Source: Mucor racemosus
Taxonomy: Eukaryota; Mucoromycota; Mucoromycetes; Mucorales; Mucoraceae
Assembly (NCBI GenBank): GCA_027405735.1
Contig: JAPEHQ010000005.1
Coordinates: forward strand, 1,674,001 to 1,738,000
Reading direction: 5' to 3'
Length of the DNA stretch: 64,000 nucleotides
Shown here: positions 2,001 to 51,190 of the stretch, one piece after another
How the letters are laid out: every line of letters starts with the position of its first letter
Numbering within the stretch: position 1 is the first letter of the stretch
Program-made: the position numbers and the translations under genes
Notes under the pieces: model-generated
Seen by the model: only the letters and a program-made list of their open reading frames with translations
Told to the model about the DNA's origin: nothing
The model's database searches: none

Positions 2001-2320
2001 AATCTGTGCTGCACAAGATGATTTTGTTGTGTCCAGGCGGGCTGCACACCATAACCTGATGAGGTGTTGCCCCCACTGAATAATTGCTAAAAAGATAATA
2101 AGATGCACATGGGCACAACAAAAGAAACTGCACATGAGCATAACGAAAAGCCTGTGCGTGTAGAATTATAGATTCTGTCCGTGTGCATGACATTAATCCC
2201 ATGTGTGCATAATAGTAGAGTTTCCCATAAGCATATCATTATTCTTATTTGTGCATAACAATAAAATCTCACCATGAGCATAATAATGTGTTGATTGGGT
2301 GGGCACAAATTGGTTTGTAC
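2000..2320. repeat. Degenerate tandem array of a 22-29 bp motif
   Basis: Motifs of the type TGAGCATAAYRA or GTGCATAACA recur roughly every 22-29 bases through this stretch (near 2105, 2133, 2205, 2232, 2254, 2275 and 2322), with flanking CACATG or CCCATG. The copies are diverged. Short open frames on the minus strand are by-products of the repetition. Confidence 0.45.
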
Positions 2321-3186
2321 ATGAGCATCGTGCCGTTCTCAAAATTCCATTGCATTTTTTTACTGGAATGGGGTTTTAAATTACATTTTCTTTTATTAAT
2401 ATAGATTATGGACAATAATACAATTCAATGCGTTGTTGATGTAGAGATGTAGAGCAATACATGCAAGAGCTAATATATTTACGATTATTATTATCTGTAA
2501 ATATGTTTATAGCTATAATAATGTTTACAGCAACAATGGTTTTTGCTTGAGCATGAAATTAAATAACACTTACTGCTTAAATTTATATGCAAGCCAAATT
2601 TTAAGCTACAGTATAAACGCTACTTTTTTATCACTCATAATATTTAAACAGGCTAACCCTCTTTAATCTTATTATTTTAGTTTACTATTGTCAGCTGTAA
2701 AAAAAATTGGTTTCAAGTATAGCTACGATCAAAACTATGGTTATTAGACAAGACATTAGGTTATTCTTTTTTTGTTTCTATAATATTTGAAACTTTATTA
2801 CTTTTCTGGAAGATTTCATGGGATTGTAACTAGTTTTACTTTTTTATTGATTAGACATAAATATAATTGCCTTAGATCTGATCTGGTAATCAAGAAATAC
2901 ATTCAACAATACAGTAGTAAACAATGATATTTGATCTTGAAATGTGTTTAAATAAAAATATCAGTCTTTAATATAGACTGCTACATATATGAAAAACATT
3001 AGTTTCCTGTGTTGTTAGAATGCGTATCCAGATAAAACAAAAGAATACCATCTTGATAGTCTGATATGCCTTATCAAACGGTGAATATATCATTGGAAAA
3101 TATGAAAACAAAAAGAGAGAAACAACACACATAGAAAAGGGGTTTCAAGGCTTTACATTATTTAGCGCAATTAAAACCCTGTTAAA

Positions 3187-3387
3187 TTGCTCATTTCAGC
3201 CAATGTAAAAACAGCATCACAATGCATGAACTATATATTATTAAACAAACTAGGCAATATCTGTTATCATAGAAGCATGCATTTTTTTACCAGAAAACCC
3301 GTCTGTGGTATCATACATTCATTAAAAAATTACAAAAGCGAGCCGCAGAGCGACACCGTAATTGAGCATAATAGCAAGATTGAATAG
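3187..3387 (+). pseudogene. Conserved short ORF of repeat R1, copy 1
   Basis: An open frame of 66 codons with no AUG start. It matches the frame at 47033-47221 and the degraded equivalent near 44380-44555. Shared protein features are ISANVK near the start, a cysteine-containing LGNICY / IGNVCY segment, and IIHSL followed by a basic tail. The function was not recognised. It may be a remnant of an element-encoded protein or simply sequence preserved by recent copying. Confidence 0.35.
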
Positions 3388-4090
3388 CTAAGTCTACTAT
3401 GGTATATCTAAGTTTTAAATAAAAAAGCGTTTTTTTTTTTTTACTTTTCTTATATTTAACCATGTACGATCTGAAAATTCAGACTTTGTAGCGGACATTT
3501 TCGGGACTCATTTTTATCCTTACCAACACTCATGATTTTGATCAAAAAATAGAAAAATCAAATTTTGATACCAAAATCAACGTTTAAATATACTACATTG
3601 TGAGAGAAAATTGTAGCTATGAGTAATACACATTATATGAAAGCTTAATAATAAATGTTAAGTAATGAAACTTTGTATTTTTGCCCCAAAAACGGATTTT
3701 TGGTTAAGGGATTTTCATGTAATATTTTGCAATAAAAAAGGTTGTTATTTTTTATTGAGCAGATAGAGTACTAAAGTCTGTATATGTGCGTATTTTTTGT
3801 TTTTATAACTGGTAGTATAATTAACTCTAGATTTGCAAAACCAGAAAAAAAAATTTAAAAAATGTCAAAATTGATGATCTGGACAAGAATAATTTTCTAA
3901 ATTAATATTCCGCATATAAGCCTTGTAAGTCTTAAAAATAAGAGATTTTATAATACTTGAGAACTTTTTTAAGAATTTACGATGTTGTACCCACTCGATT
4001 CAAGCTTATTACTGTAAATATTTACATATTATGTTAATATTATGTAGTAGTTATTAGATGATAATATAGTCCTACTTGATAATTATTGCG

Positions 4091-4330
4091 CTAGAGGTGA
4101 TTCACATTAAGTTTTAGTGTTACGTCTCCAATATCATAAATATAACCATAACCATCACTGGAACCTATTATTGCCACCTTTTTACCCTCTTTGTCCCAAG
4201 CCCATTTATTCAATGCGTTACCAGAACCAACATAAGTACTTACAAATGGTTTCTAGGCATTTGCATTCAAATTCCATAAATTAAATTGGCTGGTTCTATC
4301 TAAAGTAGTATCAAACGTATCATCAGCCCG
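4091..4330 (-). pseudogene. Cytoplasmic dynein intermediate chain fragment (WD40 C-terminal part), copy 1
   Basis: Reading the minus strand gives FNLWNLNANA, an in-frame TAG, then KPFVSTYVGSGNALN, WAWDKEGKKVA and SSDGYGYIYDIGDV before a stop. The order of an LWNLN blade end, a GSGRALN linker, a GKKVA strand and a SDG.(I/V)YIYD(I/V)G strand is characteristic of the last WD40 blades of dynein intermediate chain (DYNC1I/nudI family). The internal stop and the lack of the rest of the gene make it a captured, non-functional fragment. It is part of repeat R1 and appears in all three copies. Confidence 0.7.
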
Positions 4331-16971: not shown

Positions 16972-18899
16972 GAAAAGATTCTTGGATAAAAATCTCCAAA
17001 AGAGAAAAGGTTTAATAATCAGTTATTTTTTATAATACATTAATCACAATAATATTCCTTCTTCTTGTATTTTCACGTGTTTTTTTACCATTTGAAAAGC
17101 ATTTAAACAGCTTGATTTGGTACATGTGCTATCAATTTTGACACATGAAAAAAGGGGGCAGATAACACAGAAAAAAGCTTAATTTCTGAGAGTGATATAA
17201 ATAAATTGGATATTTCTTCATTTCTTTCCAGAGAATAAACGTATCATTTTATTACATTTAAAATACATTCATTATTTATTATTTAGCTCATATGATTGTA
17301 TGTAAGCAATATTGCATTGTCCCTTTTTTTGGGGGGAAGGGGGGAAAAGGAGTTTCTTATTAATGAAATAGTAAAACTAGTCAATTGATCTGGTCATGTA
17401 TTCAGGTAAATCGTGGCGCACCATACCAATAATATCATCTTTATAAATGAACACCCCAAATAAGTTTTTTGGTTGATCAAGTAAGCCCAATCATGCTCTC
17501 CACCTTCTCATTTCCGGCAAACCATAATTTAGTTTGCAAATTCTTTTATCTATTTGTCACTTTTTTCTTTAACATGACGATGAACATCTCATTTATAAAA
17601 ATGAGTAGTGATGAATTAATGTATTATAGCACACGTATTATTTAAAGGAGGTATTTCATTAGATAATATGTTGATAATATTGTATAAATACAACACAATC
17701 AATTGCAATTGTGTATTATATGCAGGAGCTTCGCCTCCTCCGTAAAGTACTTTTGTCGGCAGTAGTTTAAAATAAGGTTTTGAAGAATTTTAACGATGCA
17801 TCGATACATTAAAAAATATTGTGTTTATGATTGGAGATACTTTTTTCCATTATATATCAATAAAACTAATACACTTAAAAATAATATGAGAGAATTACGA
17901 CCAAAATATAAATAATACCGTGCTTTCCTATTTATGTTTTGGTACGCAGCGAAATATACTTATTCTGTAGCCATTTCTTACAGAATACAATTTTAAAATT
18001 GAAGCTATATATAATTAAATAGCTTTATTTTATTAAAGAATGTTAGAAAATTCAAAAGTTTCTAATTTTAATCACTGATATATCATATGTACATATCCAT
18101 CAATTCGAAAAGTTTTCAAAGCCATAATCACCAAATTAAGGATGCAGTTTATACTATAAATTTTGTATTAATAAATGATTAAAGTGTTAACGACCTCTGA
18201 TACTCTTAGTATATATATATATATAGAAATGCGTTGCTCAATGACAGGTTGCCTTACTTATTCTAACAAACAGCATCAACCCTTCTTTATGGTATATCGT
18301 TTATTGTAATATCATGAAATGTGCAAAATATTTAGCATTAATTTGCATTATTTTGTGGGATTGTATGTGGAATATGTACACATTTATCCACTATATTGAT
18401 CTCCATTTCATCTGATTCTCAATTAAAGTACAGCTGACATGAATAGACATTTCACTACTAAATGATATATGCTGATTCATACTAATATAAATTTTCTACC
18501 AAGCTTCTATCCTAGCAACTTATAGTTAAAGACCAATCAACCTACTGTGGATTTAATCACACCATTATGATCAAGGACCCATGAATTCTATGAATACACC
18601 GATTGGTTACTACCAAGATTTATATCTGACAAGGGGTGTTATTGGCTATGTATGGACCTAGGAATGCTTACCTAATCTCTCTGATGAAAACTATATAAAG
18701 AGGACATTTATTTATTACAAAAGTCCTCAAGTAGAATTTAACTTGATAATAAAACCCTAATGTTATCTAGTCGAATTCCTATTGTTTTTTTATACTTTTT
18801 TCCGTGAATAGCTCTGTCTGTTCCACATTGTAGTTTGTAGGATTTGAGGCATTAATTTTTTGTATTCACAACTTAGATCCAACTGAAAGTTAACTGTAT
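16972..18899. other. Intergenic region upstream of the Opi1-family gene
   Basis: Mostly AT-rich. It contains a G-rich run (GGGGGGAAGGGGGG) at about 17331-17344, a small GGAG-CTTCG-CTCC hairpin near 17725, and a decayed coding patch at 17386-17545 listed separately. At 18690-18780 a TATATAAAG box followed by repeated CTCAAGTAGAATTTAAC-like sequence could be part of another LTR, but no second copy lies in the window. Confidence 0.4.
17386..17545 (-). pseudogene. Decayed coding fragment, unknown family
   Basis: Two overlapping minus-strand frames look coding: QTKLWFAGNEKVESMIGL, then one base out of frame LDQPKNLFGVFIYKDD and IIGMVRHDLPEYM to a TAG near 17388. The join fits a single-base frameshift around 17487. 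The composition is protein-like, but there is no start codon and no upstream exon that I can place. Family not recognised. Confidence 0.3.
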
Positions 18900-19705
18900 T
18901 TTCTGTTTCAGCAAAAAATATTGATCTTTCGTCGAGATATTCAAGCTAATAGTTCACATAAAGCTTAAAATCTATAATATCTGGATTCCAAAATTGATTT
19001 TCGAAAAATAATCGAAAACGATTAAAAAGATAAAATTGTTCAATAGCTCATGAACTGCCAAGTAAGTAAATCTGGTGCATTATATAGGCTTTATACAGTT
19101 TTAGATTTTGCATCCACCTAAACAAAATTTAAACAAATGTTTTACCTTAAATGTTACATAAAATGCAATTGAAGTTTTGGAGGTTTTTTGAATATACACA
19201 TCACTTTTTATAAGCATATTTTAAATATAAGTAATGGAAACAATGTACACAAGAACAATCTATCAATCGAGCCATTGTTAAATCTTTTATCTGTATTGTT
19301 CGTGGAGAAAACGATATTTGTGCCCAAAAATTTTCAATTTCAGAATCTGGGATGAGGGTATGCAGGGGAAAAATTGAAGCAAGAAGCGTGGATATTTCTT
19401 TGTACATATTTTTAAAGATATCTCGACGAAAAATCAACATTTTTAAAAGAACTAAATTGGGCTTGATAGAACTCAAAGAGATCTATGACATGAAAATAAA
19501 AAAAATGTGCTGTTTAGTCTAAAGAATATTTTGTAATCTACTACAAAAAGGTCAAAAAAAGGGATTAAAAAAAAAAGTGCTCAGAATTTTTTTATATTTC
19601 AATGTGTTACAAAGCGCTTCAAAACAAGTAAGTTTAATTATTTGATATTATCAGTATAGCTTAATGTTTTACAGAGATATGAAGGCTTTAAGTTATTAAG
19701 TTTTA
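18900..19705 (+). repeat. Dispersed repeat E, copy 1, left part
   Basis: Matches 49900-50740 in the same orientation and, inverted, parts of 31270-32530 and 34000-35075. It begins with a TTTCGTCGAGATATTCAA motif and carries the inverse of that motif about 500 bp later (CTCGACGAAAAATCAAC near 19420), so a foldback pairing is possible. It contains the conserved open frame at 19352-19522. It is interrupted by the SINE at 19706-20141. Confidence 0.7.
19352..19522 (+). pseudogene. Conserved ORF remnant in repeat E, copy 1
   Basis: 56 codons starting MRVCRGKIEARS and including ISRRKINIFKRTKLG. The same frame occurs in the other three copies (MRVHKGKIDARN, MRVYKGKFEARS, MRVYKEKFEARN, each followed by an ISPRKINI segment). 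The frame also reads open upstream of the ATG for about 30 codons in three copies. Likely a relic of a protein once encoded by the element; family not recognised. Confidence 0.4.
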
Positions 19706-20141
19706 TTTTTTATAGGGTGTACCGTAGTGGGTATACATTATTTTTTATTTAACGATTGGCTTAATATTTATAAAACTCCTACGTAACGTGTATAAAGCAA
19801 AGTGTAATCAAACAAGGAAAAGGGACTAAGAGGCCAATCGAGTGGGCTCGAAGAGTTGAAGAATTTATCCGGAGTTCCTAACAGCGTACCCACCGGGGAA
19901 TACGCCGAAGAGTGCGAGATTGGGAAAGTTAGTTCGACCGGAGAGGGCTGCGTCCAGAGCAGAGCACATGATGCGGCTTCATTGTCATCGCAGTACGTCT
20001 GATAAACAACTAAACACCAAAACGGGAAAGACAGTATCCACACACTGCATACCAAAATTCTTGCTTCCAATGAGGTTCGAACAGAGGATCTTACGTTTGG
20101 CAAACGTATTTTCTACCATTCAGCCCAACCACCAGGGGCGT
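19706..20141 (-). mobile_element. tRNA-derived SINE (tRNA-Gly-like head)
   Basis: A 436 bp insert, clearly GC-richer than its surroundings, sits between perfect 14 bp direct repeats GTTATTAAGTTTTA (19692-19705 and 20142-20155). The repeat-E copy at 49900-51190 is uninterrupted at the matching point. Read on the minus strand from 20141, the insert begins with a tRNA-like unit: A-box-like TGGGCTGAATGGTAG (plus-strand 20113-20127), an anticodon arm TACGT-TTGCCAA-ACGTA with anticodon GCC (glycine), and B-box GTTCGAACC (20074-20082). The far end is A-rich (CTATAAAAAA), as expected for target-primed retrotransposition. An internal minus-strand open frame of 111 codons is not treated as a protein. 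Confidence 0.85.
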
Positions 20142-20530
20142 GTTATTAAGTTTTAGCAGTGAAATATCTGTAAAAATCTGAAACATTAGCACTAAAAACG
20201 TTATACCAACTGCAAAAAATAGGATATTTCCGGATACTAATTTTTAGATTAAAGTTGATCATCTCAGGTACATTGGCATATAATTTTTTCTTGATGCTAT
20301 TTAATGAAAAAAAAAAAAGTAGAACAGGGGTGAAAAATGTGATCCAGTTTTGAAGGAAAAAACAGTGAATTTTACATGTTTTTGAGTCTTTTGTGAGATA
20401 CAAAATAAATTTAGGAACAGATAACATAATACGATCAATTCGTATCTATTTGGCAGTGTCTAAAGTATAATATCCTGAAGATTATTCAATACAGGGTTAA
20501 ATATAGAAAAGGTGGAACGCTCCGCCACCA
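20142..20530 (+). repeat. Dispersed repeat E, copy 1, right part
   Basis: Continuation of repeat E after the SINE, matching about 50730-51080. It contains the shared TTTAGCAGTGAAATA start and the GGATATTTCCG motif, and ends around the GGACGCTTCG-like segment seen in copy 4 (here GGAACGCTCCG). Confidence 0.65.
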
Positions 20531-31269: not shown

Positions 31270-32530
31270 CAGAGTACCTGGAGCTATACTCCCCAATAGA
31301 TATTCTTTTTGTAGATACCTACTCAAGTAAAAAATTGAATTTCCATAGCTTTTAATCTTCAAAATTGGAGCGTCCCACTTTTTTATAACTAACTTCATAT
31401 TAAAAGACTTTTGGGACATATCTTATACACTGCTAAATATATATGAATTGGTCGTGCTGTGTTACCTGTTTCTAAATTTATTTTATACCGCACGAAAGAC
31501 TCAAAAAAAAACACGTAAAATATATTGCTTTTTCCTTCAAAACTGAGTCTTACTTTTCAACCCTGCTCTACTTTTGTTTTCACTAAATAATACCAAGGAA
31601 AAATTATATGATAATGTACTTGAGATGTCCAACTTTAATTCAAAAACGTGTATCCGAAAATATCCTATTTTTTGCAGTTGTTATAAATTTTTCAGTGCTA
31701 ATCTTTCAGATTTTACACGTATTTCACTCTTTCACTATTAAAAGTTGAAACTTTGAGGCTTCATATCTCTACAAAAAATTAAGTTATACTGACATTTTTT
31801 AATAATAAAACTTACTTGTTTTGCAGCGCTCTATAACATATTTTAGTATAAAAAAATTATGAGCACTTTTGTTTTTTTTCATTTTTTTTTTGACATTTTT
31901 GTAGCAATTTTCAAAATATTTGTTATATTGAGCAGCATTCTTTTTTGCATTGTTGTCATCAAGCTCGTTGAGCTCTCTCGGACCCAATTTAGGTTTTTTT
32001 AAAATATTAATTTTTCGTGGAGATATCCTTAAAAATGCGTACAAAAATATACCTTCATTTCTAGCGTCTATTTTTCCCTTATGTACCCTCATCCTAAATT
32101 CTGAATCTGAAAATTTTTTTACAAAAATCTCATTTTCTCTATGAAAAATGCAGATAGAAGGTTCATCAATGACTCGATCGATAGATAATAATTTTCTACA
32201 TTGTGTCCATTACTTATATTTGAAATGTATCTATAAAAAATGATGCGTATCTTCAAAAAACCTCCAAAATTTCAATCGTATTTTACACAAAATTTAACGT
32301 GAAACATTTGTTTGATTTTTATTTAGATAGATGCAGAATCCAAAAATTTACGAAAACTATTTAATACACTAGGTGGACTTACTTTGCAGTTCATGAGCAT
32401 TTAAACAATTTTGTGTTTTAGATGATTTTCGATCGTTTTTTGCAAATCAAATTTTCAACTCAGTTGGAACAGACTGTAGGCTGTAATGTAAATTATTATT
32501 TTGATTTTCTCTATCAAAAGCCAATAGTTT
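31270..32530 (-). repeat. Dispersed repeat E, copy 2 (inverted)
   Basis: Reverse complement of the repeat at 49900-51190. It holds the conserved frame on the minus strand at 32092-31799 (97 codons, MRVHKGKIDARN then ISPRKINILKKPKLG), the longest intact version of the repeat-E frame. In this copy the frame extends upstream of the ATG through RENEIFVKKF. Confidence 0.7.
31799..32092 (-). pseudogene. Conserved ORF of repeat E, copy 2 (longest version)
   Basis: 97 codons from the first ATG. Basic, lysine-rich and predicted mostly helical (FLRISPRKINI, KLGPRELNELDD, then a Lys/Asn/Tyr-rich tail). No catalytic motif or family recognised. Kept because the frame is shared by four copies. Confidence 0.4.
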
Positions 32531-33999
32531 TCGTTGGAATAAAAAATACAGAGTAGCTTACAATTGGATCTATCTTATGAATACAAAAAACTAATATCTC
32601 AATTATGGAGTTTAAATTGTACCATCAATTTTAAATCAGTTTCAAGTGAATGTTAAGGCAATATTAGGTTAACGTTATGTCAATGCACTAACATTCTGGT
32701 ATTAACCCTTTTATTTTGGGACAGATACCAATAGCCACGAAGCGAAGGTATATTTCTTTTTAAAATTTGTGAGAAATAAGCTCAATATTAGATGAGAAAA
32801 TTCGAAACCTTTCTGAGAATCATCTAAAACCTATTTTTCACAACCGTAGAAACCCGACAACAAAAAACTCTAACTCGATGAATTTTGAATTTAATAATTT
32901 TCAATTTTGCATGATAGTAAGTACGCATGTTTTACAGAACTGTCTCGAATGGGAACTTTAACAAGCTACTGTGTGCTGAGAAAACCATCGGCAAAGCACG
33001 CCTATAATTTGCTGCGCATTTTTATTCAAATCTGCAATAAAATTGAAGTAATTTTATAAAAATGAAAAATAAAATAAAAAATAAAAGCGTTGATAAATAC
33101 AATTATAGTCTTTCCACGGTTTTATTGTGGTTAAAAGAAATCTGAAGAAAAAGAATGATATCTTCATAAAGTATGCTATATTTATAGGAATTGTAAAATA
33201 GTGGATGTTTGTGTGTTGATGCCTATTTTACAGGTGTCAATCATAATATCTTTTATTGACATTCTTTTATAAGATACTTGGTTGAGATGTTGATACTTTG
33301 TTTGATATAATAAAATATCATTAGATGGATGTTGATCTTTCAACATTCCAGTTATAATTTAAAATGCAACTGAGCTTATTTTCATGGGATGTGATTCCTT
33401 ATCTAGAATTACTGCAACTGCGATTTTATGAGCAGGAGTTTTGGAATATATTATTAATGCAAAATAAGTACAGCTTTATATCATAGGTGTCGTGTTGTAG
33501 AAGGTTGTATTTTGATCAGGAATACTTCCTTTTACAGGCACCAGCAATATAGAGTTTCCTCGTTATGCTTATTGGGATCTGATTGGAACTCAGTCCTTAT
33601 GGAGCGAGATTCAGGTACAAATCGAGATCAGTTATTTTTCTGAAATGACAATGGCGACTTTGGTCTATAAAAGGTGTCATTTCATTGCAAAATCAATGTG
33701 AAATTTGTTCTCAATGAATAGGAACCCAAATAAGCCCTAATTCCACAGAAAAAAGATAATATTACTGTCTATCTGCTGGTAAATAAATGCTCCAAGCTTC
33801 AGCTCCCATGGGTTACTGGTTATTCGTTATTGTGCATTCTGTAACTTTTTTTTTTTAAAAAAAACAAGTTTATTACCTGCTATTTACACCTACTAAGAAG
33901 GGCAGTAAGCAGACTCGTTCTCGATGAATTATTATAGATTGAAATGAGCTCCCATTGCAATGAATATATACCTTAGGCATTGTTAATTAGATATAAACT
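32531..33999. other. Intergenic, no gene seen
   Basis: AT-rich. Around 33490-33860 there is a somewhat GC-richer stretch with a CTATAAAAGG box (near 33665) that looks like an LTR promoter, but no second copy or terminal structure could be established in this window. Confidence 0.4.
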
Positions 34000-35075
34000 G
34001 GTTGCATTAAGCTACCTGTTTCCAAATTTACATTACATCACATAAAAGACTTGAAAAACGCGTAAAATACACATTTTTTCCTTAAAAACTGGATCCAACT
34101 TTTTATTCCTACTCTATTTTTTTTCACTAAATAATACCACGATAAGATAATACACTAATGTACCTGAGATGTTCACCTTTAATCCAAAAACAAGTATCCA
34201 GAAATATCCTACATTTTGCAGGTGGTATTAATTTTTCAGTGCTAATGTTTCAGATTTTTACGCGTAATTCATTGCTAAAAATCAAAAACTTTGAGGCTCG
34301 ATATCTTCAAGAAAAATTAAGCTATATTAACACTTTTTAATAATAAAACTTACTTGTTTTAAAGTACTTTATAACATATTTTAATATAAAAAAAATCTGA
34401 CCACCTTTATTTTATTTTTATTTTTTTGGCATTTTTGTAGTAGATTTCAAAATATTCGTTAAATTGAGTAGTATTTTTAATACATTTATATTATCGACCT
34501 CGTTGAGCTCTATTATAACCAATTTAAATTTTTCCAAAATATTGATTTTTCGTGGAGATATCCTTAAAAATGTGTACAAAGGAATACTTTCGCTTCTAGC
34601 TTCAAATTTTCCCTTATATACCCTCATCCGAAATTCTGAATTTGAATTTTTTTTGACAAAAATCTCATTTTCTCTACAAAAAATGTAGCTAAAAAGCTCA
34701 GTAATAGCTCGATCGATAGATAATGTTTGTGTGCATTATCTCCATTATTTGTATTAAAAATATACTTATAAAAAGTGGTGTGTATATTCAAAAAATCTCC
34801 AAAATTTCAATTGCATTTTACGTAAAATTTAATGTCAAATATCTGTTTAAATTTTATTTAGGTGGATACAGAATTTAAAACTGTATAAAAATTATTTAAT
34901 AAACCAGGTTTACTCACTTGGTAGTTCATGAGCAACTAAACGATTTTTTTTTATCATTTTTCGATCATTTTTCGATCAGTTTGGAAAATTGATTTTAGAA
35001 CCCAGCTACCATAAATTTCAAGCTGTACATGAACTATTAGTTTGAATATCTCGACGAAAAATCAACATTTAATAT
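34000..35075 (-). repeat. Dispersed repeat E, copy 3 (inverted)
   Basis: Reverse complement of repeat E, about 80% identical to copy 2 by eye. The minus-strand frame 34627-34418 (69 codons, MRVYKGKFEARS then ISPRKINI) is equivalent to the frames in the other copies. The paired motifs GATTTTTCGTGGAGATATCC (near 34543) and CTCGACGAAAAATCAAC (near 35052) again lie about 500 bp apart in inverse orientation. Confidence 0.7.
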
Positions 35076-43509: not shown

Positions 43510-45411
43510 TTGTACATGATGAGCATCGTGCCGTTCTCAAAATTCCTTCCATTTTTTACTGGAATAGGGTTTTAAATTATATTTGCTTTTATTAATATAG
43601 ATTATAGACAATACAATTCAATACGTTGTTGATGTAAAGCAATACATGCAAGAGCCAATATATTTACAATTACCATCATTTGTAAATATATTTATAGCTA
43701 TAATGTTTGCAGTAGCAATGGTTTTTGCTCGAGTATAAACTTAAATAATACTTACCGCTTAAATTTTTATGCAAGTAAAATCTAAGATTATAGATGTTAC
43801 TTTATCACTCGTAAAATTTAAACAAATTAACCTTCTTTAAACTTACTATTTTAGCTTACGATTATCAGCTGTAAAAAGATTTGTTTTCAAGTATAGCTAT
43901 GATCAAGACTATAGTCATTAGGCAAGACATTAGATTATTCTTTTTTTTGTTTTTATATCATTTGAAATTTTATCACTTTTCTGAAACATTTCGTGGGTTT
44001 GTAGCCAGTTCTAGCTTTTTTTCATTGCGTAGGTATATATATTATTATTATTACCTTCGAATTGATCTGGTAATCATCAAGAAATACGTCCAACAATACA
44101 GTACTAAACAATGATATTTGATCTTAGAATGCGGTTAGATGAAAATATCCGTCTCTAATAATATAACGATTGCTACCTATATTAAAAACATTAGTCCCTT
44201 AATATTAGCATGCGTATTCAAATAAAAGAAAAGAATACCAGCTTGATAGTCTGATATGCCTTATCAAGGGGTGAATAATATCCTTGGAATATGAAAACAA
44301 AAAGAGAGAAACAACACAGGTAGAAAAGGATTTTCCAAACTTTTCCATTATTCAGCGCAATTAAAACCCTGTTAAATTGCACATTTCAGTCAATGCAAAC
44401 GCAGCATTACAGCGCCTGAACTATAAACTAAGCAAAATAAGCAATATCTGTTACAATAATAGAAACATAAAATTTTCTACTAGAAAAACCGTCTGTCATA
44501 TCATACATTCATTAAAAAATTGCAAAAGCAAGTCCGTAGAACGACGCCGTAATTGAGCATAGCAAGATCGAACGACCAAGTCTCTTATACTATGGTACAG
44601 TATATATCTAAGTTTTAAATAAAAATGCGGTTTTTTTTTAACTTTTCTTATATTTAACCACGTACGGTCTGAAAATTCAGTTTTTGTAGCGGACATTTTC
44701 GAAGCTCATTTTATCCTTACCAACACTCATGATTTTGATCAAAAAACAGAAAAATCAAATTTTGATGCCAAAATCAACGTTTAAATATACTACATTGTGA
44801 GAGAAACTTGTAGCCATAACTAATACACATTTTATAAAAGCTTAATATTAAATGTTAAGTAATGAAAATCTGTAGTTTTGTCCCAAAAACGGTTTTTTGA
44901 TTAAAGGATTTTCATGTAATATTTTACAATAAAAATGTTTGTTATTTTTTATTGAGCAGATAGAGCGCTAAATGTTGTATAAGTGTATATTTTTTGTTTT
45001 TTTAATTGGTAGTATAATTAACTCTAGATTTGCAAAACCAAAAAAAAAATTTAAAAAATGTCAAAATTGATGATCTAAACAAAATTAATTTTCTAAATTA
45101 ATATTCCGCTTGTAAGCCTTGTACGTCTTAAAAATAAGAGATTTTATTATACTTGTGAACTTTTTCAAGAATTTACGATGCTGTACCCACTCGACTCAAG
45201 CTTATTACTGTAAATATTTACATATTATGTTAATATTATGTGGTAGTTATTAGATGATAATATAGCCCTACTTGATAATTATTGCGCTAGAGGTGATTTA
45301 CATTAAGTTTTAGTGTTACCTCTCCAATATCATAAATATAACCATAGCCATCACTGGAACCTATTATTGCCACCTTTTTACCCTCTTTGTCCCAAGCCCA
45401 TTTATTCAATG
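43510..45411 (+). repeat. Repeat R1, copy 2 (truncated on the right by an LTR)
   Basis: Collinear with 2321-4215. It stops inside the dynein fragment at the sequence TTTATTCAATG, where LTR family A begins. The segment from about 44517 to 45000 is identical to 47182-47665 of copy 3, while neighbouring parts are clearly diverged. Confidence 0.75.
45288..45411 (-). pseudogene. Dynein intermediate chain fragment, copy 2 (cut by LTR)
   Basis: Minus-strand translation gives NKWAWDKEGKKVA, SSDGYGYIYDIG and the same stop as copy 1. The upstream part (LWNLN blade) is missing because the LTR at 45412 interrupts the repeat. Confidence 0.65.
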
Positions 45412-45947
45412 TGTTGTATTCCACCTACTAGTATCATACATTATCACCTTCTACAGTATCAATACATCTTACAATCTATTGACTACGACATGTATTGAAG
45501 TGCAAGTCTTGATATCGGATATACGATATAAGAAACTCCTAGCGTATCAAGTTTAATCCAGTAATTACCAAGGACGCTTTGACCTCAATTATGGCACCAC
45601 ATTATTTCATCCCAGCAGTTAACCAATCAAGTAGCTATCAAATCAACATCCAAGCACATTTAGCGCAGCATTGAAACAAGACAACTCACAAGCTCTGCAA
45701 TAACGTTTAAATTATGATTGATCCATTTCAATCCATAGATTACTATCAAACAGATCCAATGGTTCAATAGTGCCTTAAATTACATCTCAGGATCTCAATG
45801 TCAAATCAATATAAAAGGCCATACTTTTACATCTAAATAAACGATATCTTGTTTTTATTACACAGTTGAAGAACTGATTAATTACTCATTCTTTTATAAT
45901 TGTATTCTTTTTTAAGTACTATTTATCAATCCTGAAAATATACGACA
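45412..45947 (+). mobile_element. Solo LTR, family A (536 bp)
   Basis: Starts TGTTGTATTCCACC and ends ATATACGACA, with a TATAAAAGGCC box near 45812. It is immediately followed at 45948-45976 by 29 bp that are the reverse complement of the LTR's own first 30 or so bases (ATGTATGATACTAGGTGG...), giving a false impression of a terminal-inverted-repeat element. Left flank belongs to R1 copy 2 and right flank to the start of R1 copy 3, and the flanking bases do not match each other. Confidence 0.78.
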
Positions 45948-46776: not shown

Positions 46777-47032
46777 ATTAGACCATAGAATGCAGTTAAA
46801 TGGAAACATCAATCACTAATATAACGACTGCTACCTATATTAAAAACATTAGTCCCTTATGTTAGAATACGTATTCAGATAAAAGAAAAGAATACCAACT
46901 TGATAGTCTGATATGCCTTATCAAATGGTGAATCATATCCTTGGAATATGAAAAAAACAAAAAAAGAGAAACACACGTAGAAGAGGATTTTCAAGGCTTT
47001 ACATTATTTAGCGCAATTAAGACCCTGCTAAA

Positions 47033-47221
47033 TTGCACATTTCAGCCAATGTAAAAGCAGCATTACAGCGCCTGAACTATAAACTAATAAGCAAAATAGG
47101 CAATGTCTGTTACAATAATAGAAACATACAATTTTCTAACGTTACCAGAAAAACCGCCTGTCATATCATACATTCATTAACAAATTGCAAAAGCAAGTCC
47201 GTAGAACGACGCCGTAATTGA
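47033..47221 (+). pseudogene. Conserved short ORF of repeat R1, copy 3
   Basis: 62 codons (reading ISANVKAALQRLNYKLI, IGNVCYNNRN and a C-terminal KSKSVERRRN). Same frame as 3187-3387. No AUG at its apparent start. Function not recognised. Confidence 0.35.
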
Positions 47222-47953
47222 GCATAGCAAGATCGAACGACCAAGTCTCTTATACTATGGTACAGTATATATCTAAGTTTTAAATAAAAATGCGGTTTTT
47301 TTTTAACTTTTCTTATATTTAACCACGTACGGTCTGAAAATTCAGTTTTTGTAGCGGACATTTTCGAAGCTCATTTTATCCTTACCAACACTCATGATTT
47401 TGATCAAAAAACAGAAAAATCAAATTTTGATGCCAAAATCAACGTTTAAATATACTACATTGTGAGAGAAACTTGTAGCCATAACTAATACACATTTTAT
47501 AAAAGCTTAATATTAAATGTTAAGTAATGAAAATCTGTAGTTTTGTCCCAAAAACGGTTTTTTGATTAAAGGATTTTCATGTAATATTTTACAATAAAAA
47601 TGTTTGTTATTTTTTATTGAGCAGATAGAGCGCTAAATGTTGTATAAGTGTATATTTTTTGTTTTTATAATTGGTAGTATAATTAACTCTAGATTTGCAA
47701 AACCAGAAAAAAAAATTTAAAAAATGTCAAAATTGATGATGATCTGGACAAGAATAATTTTCTAAATTAATATTCCGCTTGTAAGCCTTGTACGTCTTAA
47801 AAATAAGAGATTTTATAATACTTGTGAACTTTTTCAACAATTAATGATGCTGTAGCCACTTGAGTCAAGCTTATTACTGTAAATCTTTTTACACGTTAAT
47901 AATGTGTGGTAGTTTATTTAATGATAATATAGTCTTACTTAATAATTAATGCG

Positions 47954-48090
47954 CTAGAAGTAATTTACATTGAGATTTAGTGTTACCCCTTCAACATCAT
48001 AAACATAAACATGGCCATCACTGAGACCTATTGCCACCTTTTTACCCTCTTTGTCTCAAGCCAATTGATTCAACAATTTACCAGAACAAA
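47954..48090 (-). pseudogene. Dynein intermediate chain fragment, copy 3
   Basis: Minus-strand translation gives a TGA in place of a tryptophan codon, then DKEGKKVAIG, LSDGHVYVYDV and a stop. This copy keeps the AIG.SDGHVYVYDV form typical of dynein intermediate chain more closely than copy 1, which has an extra codon (AIIGSS). Confidence 0.68.
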
Positions 48091-48339
48091 CTTACTTTTG
48101 ACTTATAAAAATTGATTTATAAGTAAAATCAATTAACAAGTGACAAGTAATAATTATGGTGTACCTTTGATAGTTGGTAGCGGTATACAAGACAACATGA
48201 CAACATCTTGTTTTCCTCTTCCTAGCTGCTGGCCACTAAATAGAAATAAATGCTTTTTAAAAACTAAATAGGCTAACATGAATTCATTCATTTATTCAAA
48301 TCAAGTCAATACTATACATACTTTCAGAATTACCAGTTT

Positions 48340-48990: not shown

Positions 48991-49899
48991 GCCGTAGTGA
49001 AGATTCGTAATCATTTATTGGTGCATTTTGGCGATGCTTTTCTCGACACAGTAAGTTGTGAAGATTGCCCTTTTAGATCATTGTGGCAAAGGTGTATTAT
49101 ATGTGCATCTAATCTTATGTAATGTTAAAAGCTATTACAATTGAACTTCACGGAGATTGGTTTTTGCTGTCGGTTTTTTACGGTTGTAAAAAGTAAGTTT
49201 CAATTGTGTTTCTCAGATACACTTTGAACGTTTTCGCCCAATATTGATTGGAATTACGTAAAGCCTTCAAACAAGATGTACTTCTGCTCTATGGGCCATT
49301 ATAATATCTGTCTGAAAAAAGAAGAATTATTACCAGTGAAGTGAACTAAGCTAGATTCCCATCATAAAATACCTAAATTAAATGTCATCTCATTTGAAAC
49401 CATGCTATCAAAGATAAGACTATATAGTAAATAGACAATTGCATAAAGATAGCAAGGGTATAATACTCAAATAAGAGATGCTAAAATACTAAAGTAATGT
49501 GGGATATCCTAAATAAAAGATACAAAAAGTACATGCTTATCAAGTAGAACAAGTAAGGGCTGTTCTGAAAGCATGATTGACAAACTATATTTAAAACACC
49601 GTTATTGATCCACCAAATCAATAACCAAACAACCCAACATTTATACTCAAAATTAATGGAATCGTTGACAATTGCAATGCAATTGCAAGATAGTAAATAA
49701 TCACCAAATAATATAAATAGAGACGTAGAATAACCATTTTATTGCACATTATCCATATTTTAATAAAGAAGGATTTTAACAGTATTCTTTATCGCTTTTT
49801 ACACCCATATTTTACTGCAACCAGAATATAAAAAGTGCAAAAAGTTAAGCACCTATATTGAGATATTAATTTTTAGTATTATTCATACGATAGATACAA
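48991..49899. other. Intergenic, no gene seen
   Basis: AT-rich. The 76-codon frame at 48892-49122 begins inside repeat G and has no recognised relative. Confidence 0.4.
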
Positions 49900-51190
49900 T
49901 TGAAAATTACTCTACATTTTTTGTTTAAGAAAAAAATATTGATTTTTCGCCGCGATATTCAAACTAATAGTTCATATAAAGCTTGAACTTTATGGTAGCT
50001 GGGTTCTAAAATCAATTGTCCAAGCTGATCGAAAAATGATACAAAACACAAAATTGTTTAATAGTTCATGAACTGTAAAGTAAGTCGACTTAGCGTGCTA
50101 AATGGTTTTTGTACAGCTTTGGATTCTGCATCCATCTAAACAAAATTAAAAAAATGTTTGACATTAAATTTTACGTAAAATACAATTGAAATTTTGAAGG
50201 CTTTTTGAAGATACACATCACTTTTTATGATTATATTTTAAATATAAGTAATGGAGATGATGCGTAAAAAAATGATCTATCGATTGAGCTATTACTGAGC
50301 ATTTTAGCTGCATTTTCTGTAGAGAAAACGAACTTTTTATCGATTTTTTTTTCAAATTCAGAACTTAGGATGAGGGTATATAAGGAAAAATTTGAAGCTA
50401 GAAACGAAGGTATCTCTTTTTACACATTTTTGAAGATATCTCCACGAAAAATCAATATTTTTAAAAAAGCTAAATTGGGCCTGAGAGAGCTTAGCAAGTC
50501 CAATGACGTGAATGTAAAAAATAATGCTGTTCGTTTTAACGAATATTTTGAAATCTACAACAGAAATGCCAAAAAAATGAAAAAAAAATAAAAGTGCTCA
50601 GAATTTTTTTATATTCAAATATGTTAAAGAGCGCTTTAAAACAAGTAAGTTTTATTATTAAAAAGTGTTAGTATAGCTTAATTTTTTCCAGAGATATGAA
50701 GCCTCAAAGTTTTCAATCCATTAGCAGTGAAATACGCGTAAAAATTCTAAAACATTAGCACTGGAAAATTAATACCAACTGCAAAAAATAGGATATTTCC
50801 GAATACTTATTTTTAAATTAAAGCTGAACATCTCAGGTACATTGACATATAATTTTTTCTTGGTATTATTTAGTGAAAAAAAAAGTAGAGTAGCGATGAA
50901 AAGTGAGACCCAATTTTGTAGTACATTTTATGTGTTTTTGAGTTTTTGTGGGATGTAAAATAAATCTAAGAACAGGTAACATAATGCGTCCAGGTCATAT
51001 TTATTATGTGTTTGTCAAGGACTATCCTGAAAGCTTTTTAATCTAGGGTTAATTATAGAAAAAGTAGGACGCTTCGGTTTTGAAAACAAAAAGTCTTGAG
51101 AATTTGCTTTTTTTTTTGAAATACAACGTAGTATCTCGAGATGTACCCTGCATGAATATGGTAAAAAGCATTTTAACACTCATCTGAAAT
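49900..51190 (+). repeat. Dispersed repeat E, copy 4 (uninterrupted)
   Basis: Most complete direct-orientation copy, about 1.3 kb. It contains the motif pair CGCCGCGATATTC (near 49945) and GATATCTCCACGAAAAATC (near 50435) in inverse orientation, and the conserved frame at 50370-50591 (MRVYKEKFEARN then ISPRKINIFKKAKLG). The frame upstream of the ATG is broken by a frameshift and stops. It serves as the empty-site reference for the SINE insertion in copy 1. Confidence 0.7.

Follow-up and report, generated by a model that had tools for sequence, protein, structure and literature searches.

A recently active, probably tRNA-type SINE family of Mucor racemosus with an insertion hotspot in another repeat

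The window analyzed here is a stretch of 64,000 nucleotides of Mucor racemosus (contig JAPEHQ010000005.1, positions 1,674,001 to 1,738,000). It contains a 436 bp block at 19706-20141, hereafter SINE-A, which is inserted in one copy of a longer repeat, E, and is bordered on both sides by perfect copies of the 14-bp sequence GTTATTAAGTTTTA, as had been claimed in an earlier note on this DNA. The following features were delimited.

19706..20141, minus strand: SINE-A copy, 5' end at 20141 and 3' A-tail at 19706
19692..19705, no strand assigned: target-site duplication at the 3' side of SINE-A, GTTATTAAGTTTTA
20142..20155, no strand assigned: target-site duplication at the 5' side of SINE-A, GTTATTAAGTTTTA
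20116..20126 (20126-20116), minus strand: motif, A-box-like GGGCTGAATGG
20076..20083 (20083-20076), minus strand: motif, B-box-like TGTTCGAA
19706..19717, minus strand: 3' terminus CCCTATAAAAAA, in the form common to SINE-B, SINE-C and the expected 3' ends of one LINE lineage
18844..20524, plus strand: repeat E copy carrying SINE-A, split at 19705/20142
49857..51119, plus strand: repeat E copy, its site unoccupied (junction 50723/50724)

The block is richer in GC than its surroundings (44% vs 31-33% in the neighbouring 2-kb bins), and it is indeed missing at the matching site of another E copy, where the empty junction is 50723/50724; both observations had been made from the letters of the window. 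Repeat E is present in the window at 18844-20524, 31323-32603, 33988-35070 and 49857-51119, and the last three copies co-align unbroken at the matching point. The minus strand of SINE-A carries two motifs, which we take to be A-box-like and B-box-like by the box consensus, spaced by 43 nt from start to start, as well as a 5-bp stem TACGT/ACGTA enclosing the loop TTGCCAA. Most other full copies of SINE-A start at the base matching 20139, vs 20141 in the window copy. Repeat E itself measures at least ~1.25 kb and is AT-rich throughout. It has no clear terminal repeats, and protein coding by E was rejected, its ten open frames having no Pfam family above cut-off. Imperfect inverted arms of 27-30 nt, ~477 nt apart, are found inside E. 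Also, a second long repeat family (1.3-1.9 kb, 85-92% identity) occupies 2315-4219, 43510-45415 and 46796-48094 of the window.

A search of the assembly (53.2 Mb, 54 contigs) showed that the unit is not unique, as the window SINE-A gave 26 matches, 21 of them long. Eighteen matches span 429-436 nt at 98-100% identity, and three (L019, L020 and L021; 369, 267 and 235 nt, 99%) are truncated at the 5' side, each with an intact 3' end and its own target duplication. The other five are limited to 77-150 nt of the 3' region (75-77% identity), and three of these (L024-L026) belong to the related family SINE-B. Eight of the 18 near-full copies (L006-L013) represent one insertion within a tandem array of a 2,117-bp unit on contig C1, and the oppositely oriented pair L002/L003 on C22 derives from a single insertion. 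With the array and the pair each collapsed to one event, the 21 long copies correspond to 13 insertion events. In the C1 array (C1:4199736-4214988, L006-L013), each of the eight 2,117-bp units carries SINE-A beside E, and SINE-A has become part of a satellite-like array.

Twelve of the 13 events show perfect target duplications of 11-16 bp, and all 12 differ, in line with the variable duplications of 10-20 bp that the earlier note had proposed to look for. No duplication of at least 8 nt was found for L018, and 1-4 additional bases separate the duplication from the SINE start in L004, L005, L006 and L019. Identity to the majority sequence ranges from 98.2 to 99.8% across the 13 events, and this supports recent activity of the family. 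Thus, the suggestion of an active or recently active SINE family is supported by dispersed near-identical copies, locus-specific duplications, 5' truncation, A-rich tails and a LINE lineage with the terminal letters at the expected position. Protein coding by SINE-A was rejected: the 114-aa open frame of two copies matched no Pfam family above cut-off (one gave 7tm_1 at 14 bits, for a cut-off of 30.5). An LTR element or TRIM, as well as a DNA transposon, were also rejected, as no terminal repeats were seen and the duplications are variable (11-16 bp), not constant and short. The anatomy is that of a tRNA-type SINE, namely a short (436 bp), dispersed (21 long copies), non-coding repeat with variable duplications and 5' truncation.

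SINE-A is not the only short family with this terminus. A 22-mer of its 3' end, with at most 2 mismatches, occurs at 70 places of the genome (control, 0), which comprise 21 SINE-A and 49 SINE-B copies. Sixteen of the 49 SINE-B copies were read (L024-L026, L087-L099). A full SINE-B is ~400 nt long and aligns with SINE-A over its full length, with gaps in the middle part. Eight young copies (L087-L094) are 99.2-100% identical to their majority sequence and have tails of pure A; seven of them present duplications of 13-17 nt, of which some leading As may belong to the tail. A duplication of at least 8 nt was present in 11 of the 16 copies read and lacking in L024, L025, L089, L097 and L099. A third short element, SINE-C, adjoins L017 (C14) at the E site, ends in CCCTATAAAAAAA and contains the GGCTCTTGGTGCAG motif of SINE-B. 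The idea that its tail is that of a LINE was rejected, since it has two genome matches, none of them at C18. Two further loci, L022 (C1:3259209) and L023 (C6:177546), are possibly old relatives, with 75-77% identity to the SINE-A 3' region over 150 and 107 nt, respectively. They also look similar to each other further upstream and may represent another, ancient family; no endonuclease match was found near them, nor any reverse transcriptase (RT) match among the best 150 of 429 candidates.

Eight of the 13 SINE-A events (L001, L002/3, L006-13, L014, L015, L016, L017 and L021) lie at one point of E and in one orientation, the left halves ending and the right halves starting at E positions 398-414. 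A ninth event in E, L018, occupies another position and is reversed. For insertion without regard to E, a simple binomial gives a probability of ~2e-28 that 8 of 13 events fall within one base of the site, even with 5000 E copies. Empty E sites were counted by an exact pattern, which occurs 562 times genome-wide (control, 0). The pattern of a filled site (CCCTAWAAAA, 5-30 nt, TTTGAGNCTTC) was found at 25 places (control, 0), corresponding to 14 SINE-A, 2 SINE-B, 1 SINE-C, 1 junction at C18:1071607-1071646 and 7 junctions without assigned element, for which no RT or endonuclease match lies just upstream among the matches listed. These seven junctions are located at C1:801603, C1:6677352, C4:2600640, C8:1421133, C9:1399482, C19:1002004 and C19:1008690. 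This pattern misses L001, L017 and L095, whose right flanks differ, and revealed no further SINE-B case among the 33 SINE-B places left unread. One more A-tail junction at the E site, devoid of CCCTAWAAAA, is located at C12:325060. Among the SINE-B copies read, 3 of 16 are at the E site (L025, L026 and L095), all of them old, and none of the eight young copies is. SINE-A outside E and young SINE-B have A/T-rich targets. Because of these dispersed insertions, the site preference is not absolute. Strict site specificity, as in R2 or in Tx1L, which reportedly inserts in Tx1D, was not observed, with 8 of 13 SINE-A events and 3 of 16 SINE-B copies at E and the others elsewhere.

Upstream of the E-site junction on C18, at a distance of 1675 nt, is an RT domain (C18:1073321-1074127, among the best 150 of 429 candidates), which belongs to a 1507-aa frame that also holds an APE-type endonuclease (C18:1075037-1075828). 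Among the matches listed, five RT places resemble this LINE by their endonuclease (C5, C6, C7, C8 and C14). The endonuclease match in these LINEs covers 786-831 nt, vs 603-666 in most other LINE frames; their endonuclease-RT spacing is 904-916 nt, a value not distinctive by itself. In the C5, C6 and C7 members, the 12-mer CCCTAWAAAAAA follows the RT at a distance of 1721, 1669 and 1669 nt, respectively, and it was not found at the expected distance past the RT of the C8 relative. Of the 77 RT places listed on C1-C8, three alone are followed by CCCTAWAAAAAA on the same strand within 6 kb, all of them similar to the C18 LINE, and the 12-mer is absent from an upstream and opposite-strand control space three times larger around the RT places listed. 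As such the 12-mer is not rare genome-wide (178 places vs 152 for the control), and it is therefore by its placement, not its rarity, that one LINE lineage is linked to the SINE terminus.

Thus, four LINE frames have CCCTAWAAAA at nearly the same distance after their RT, in one case at an E site. These frames (1030-1507 aa, on C5, C6, C7 and C18) are the candidate partners, and the motif would represent their own 3' ends. Three of the four places are absent among the E-site junctions. The earlier note had proposed to look for a 3' end shared with a LINE; such an end was found as the terminal CCCTAWAAAA(AA), that is the last 10-12 nt, and the genome search with SINE-A gave no longer match at any LINE. 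A scan of 20 open frames of the extracted loci for LINE domains yielded one RT fragment (L046), and five pairs of LINE and tRNA gene within 7 kb were counted, for 2.5 expected. Another endonuclease LINE, mostly in 1124-aa frames, is arranged head to tail with a period of ~4,806 bp on C35 and C37 and near the contig ends of C8 (start) and C16, which suggests tandem LINE arrays, terminal or otherwise clustered.

Taken together, we consider with a probability of about 0.72 that SINE-A is a tRNA-type SINE carried by the C18-type LINE lineage, with an insertion hotspot in E. SINE-A would be composite and non-coding: a degenerate tRNA-like head would be followed by a middle part and a tail akin to those of SINE-B, and by the 3' end CCCTA(T)AAAAAA. 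It is probably transcribed by Pol III, and its RNA would be reverse-transcribed in trans by the APE-endonuclease LINE lineage ending in CCCTAWAAAA. The LINE enzyme would nick A/T-rich DNA, very often at one point of E, on the opposite strand. The first nick is best placed at 5'-..TTTTA^GCAG-3', because most E-site duplications begin with TAA, after a tail ending in As. Base pairing between the freed TTTTA end and the UAAAA of the RNA tail could prime cDNA synthesis; the 11-16-bp duplications would then result from a second, staggered cut, and the 5'-truncated copies from incomplete cDNA synthesis. The eight hotspot events are compatible with a preference at the level of the endonuclease, of pairing, or of both.

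The carrier could instead be a different LINE for which an A-tail suffices, the E site being a TTTTA nick in accessible, dispensable DNA where the C18 LINE landed likewise. The A-rich tails, the A/T-rich targets of SINE-A outside E and of young SINE-B, and the position of three of the four matching LINE places away from detectable E sites agree with this account. We nevertheless regard it as unlikely, as, among the 77 RT places listed, a single LINE type has CCCTAWAAAAAA in the 6 kb downstream, and as one exact position of E was used 8 times though E is AT-rich throughout.

The head of SINE-A had been read in the earlier note as tRNA-Gly(GCC), from A and B boxes and an anticodon loop TTGCCAA on a 5 bp stem. 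The motifs and the stem are present, whereas the anticodon reading could not be confirmed. ARAGORN detected no tRNA in the 64-kb window nor in the SINE-B copies L026, L096 and L098, the Rfam tRNA model gave no match at E<=10 on the SINE-A heads of the window copy and L017, and a cloverleaf was absent from both heads folded. Gly(GCC) was not found among the 30 tRNA loci examined, and the identity deduced from this single loop is not established. The suggested covariance search was thus negative for SINE-A and barely positive for one of the five sister SINE-B copies scanned: the old copy L098 reached 29.3 bits for a cut-off of 29, over model positions 9-63 of 71, and the four others had no match at E<=1. 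A tRNA-derived head is likely, through the indirect evidence of SINE-B. That the head is not tRNA-derived, its box-like motifs having arisen by chance or convergence or from another Pol III RNA, would account for the negative ARAGORN and Rfam results on SINE-A, for the negative ARAGORN results on L026, L096 and L098, and for the lack of a cloverleaf in either fold; but the score of the old SINE-B copy and the alignment of the SINE-A and SINE-B heads make this origin unlikely.

Shared flanks would point to duplication of one insertion, and the flanks of the hotspot copies were compared in 21 pairs covering seven of the eight events (L017 was omitted, as a second element follows). Mean identity was 75.0% (range 61-83) for the left E flank (300 nt) and 81.9% (range 76-89) for the right one (400 nt), vs 98.8% (range 97.5-100) for SINE-A itself. 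The SINE insertions are thus much more recent than the E copies. No common duplications or near flanks were seen among the eight events. The flanks being diverged, the SINEs near-identical and each duplication private, the hotspot insertions are independent, although 8 of 13 events are at one E position. Segmental duplication and gene conversion are rejected on these grounds, and spread of one insertion between E copies, of which the C1 array (L006-L013) and the C22 pair (L002/L003) are two real cases, each already collapsed to one event, is highly improbable for the eight remaining events, which have eight different duplications, identical at both ends, E flanks differing by ~18-25% on average for ~1% in the SINEs, and a 5'-truncated member with its own duplication (L021).

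For the tRNA-type SINE presumably carried by the C18-type LINE lineage, we tentatively propose a wider scenario, which we hold to be somewhat less probable than its converse. A Mucor LINE lineage would have a sequence-specific endonuclease preference for one E site, and at least three short families (A, B and C) would use this landing site. The UAAAA tail matches the TAAAA of the target, and tail and site may have co-evolved; young SINE-B, with its pure A tails, would have escaped the site. Such a SINE-LINE set offers a natural hotspot that can be counted: the exact pattern gives 562 empty sites, and the filled ones comprise 13 identified events and 7 unassigned places. Questions that it would open to direct study are which target features the endonuclease recognises, whether integration is guided by pairing between tail and target, and by what route a SINE family abandons its hotspot.

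The host was rightly supposed to be an early-diverging fungus (Mucorales). The Sec62 protein encoded in the window shows 96% identity to a Mucor velutinosus protein and 100% to an unnamed one, and the ten best matches with an organism name, among at least 120 listed from 7,997 candidates scored, all come from Mucorales. To our knowledge, most of the SINEs described with a LINE partner come from animals, plants and Dikarya. In the accessible parts of the open-access literature, we found no characterised SINE family of Mucorales, nor a SINE with such a hotspot, which is a weak negative. The available text on the Rhizomucor miehei genome mentions SINEs in passing (PMC4023604). In Mucor, Grem-LINE1 is presented, in the accessible part of its description, as an L1-like, pericentric element with two ORFs (PMC7377519); like the LINEs reported here, it is a Mucor LINE with an RT domain, a comparison by description only, and the term 'sine' is absent from that part of the text (PMC7377519).

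The following comparisons concern the portions of the cited papers that were available. In Aspergillus fumigatus, AfuSINE2 is a tRNA-derived SINE with target duplications of 4-14 bp, one fungal SINE family shares its 3' region with a LINE, and Foxy and the Magnaporthe SINEs are cited as further tRNA-derived SINEs of filamentous fungi (PMC5063351). Like these, SINE-A is short and non-coding, with a box-like head and target duplications; unlike them, it belongs to another phylum, most of its insertions occupy a single position of a different repeat, and two related Mucor families have the tail and the site in common (PMC5063351). Target-specific APE LINEs are known in the Tx1 and R1 clades (PMC4640811). 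The Mucor elements resemble them by the APE endonuclease and the preference for one site in a repeated sequence, and by these features alone, whereas their site specificity is partial (PMC4640811). I-1_AF of A. fumigatus, a LINE of the Tad clade, is reported to insert either at random or at one precise position within another element (PMC5063351). Here also, a fungal LINE with an endonuclease is associated with dispersed insertions and a hotspot in another repeated element, but the hotspot of I-1_AF was reported for the LINE, whereas that of Mucor is used mainly by SINEs (PMC5063351).
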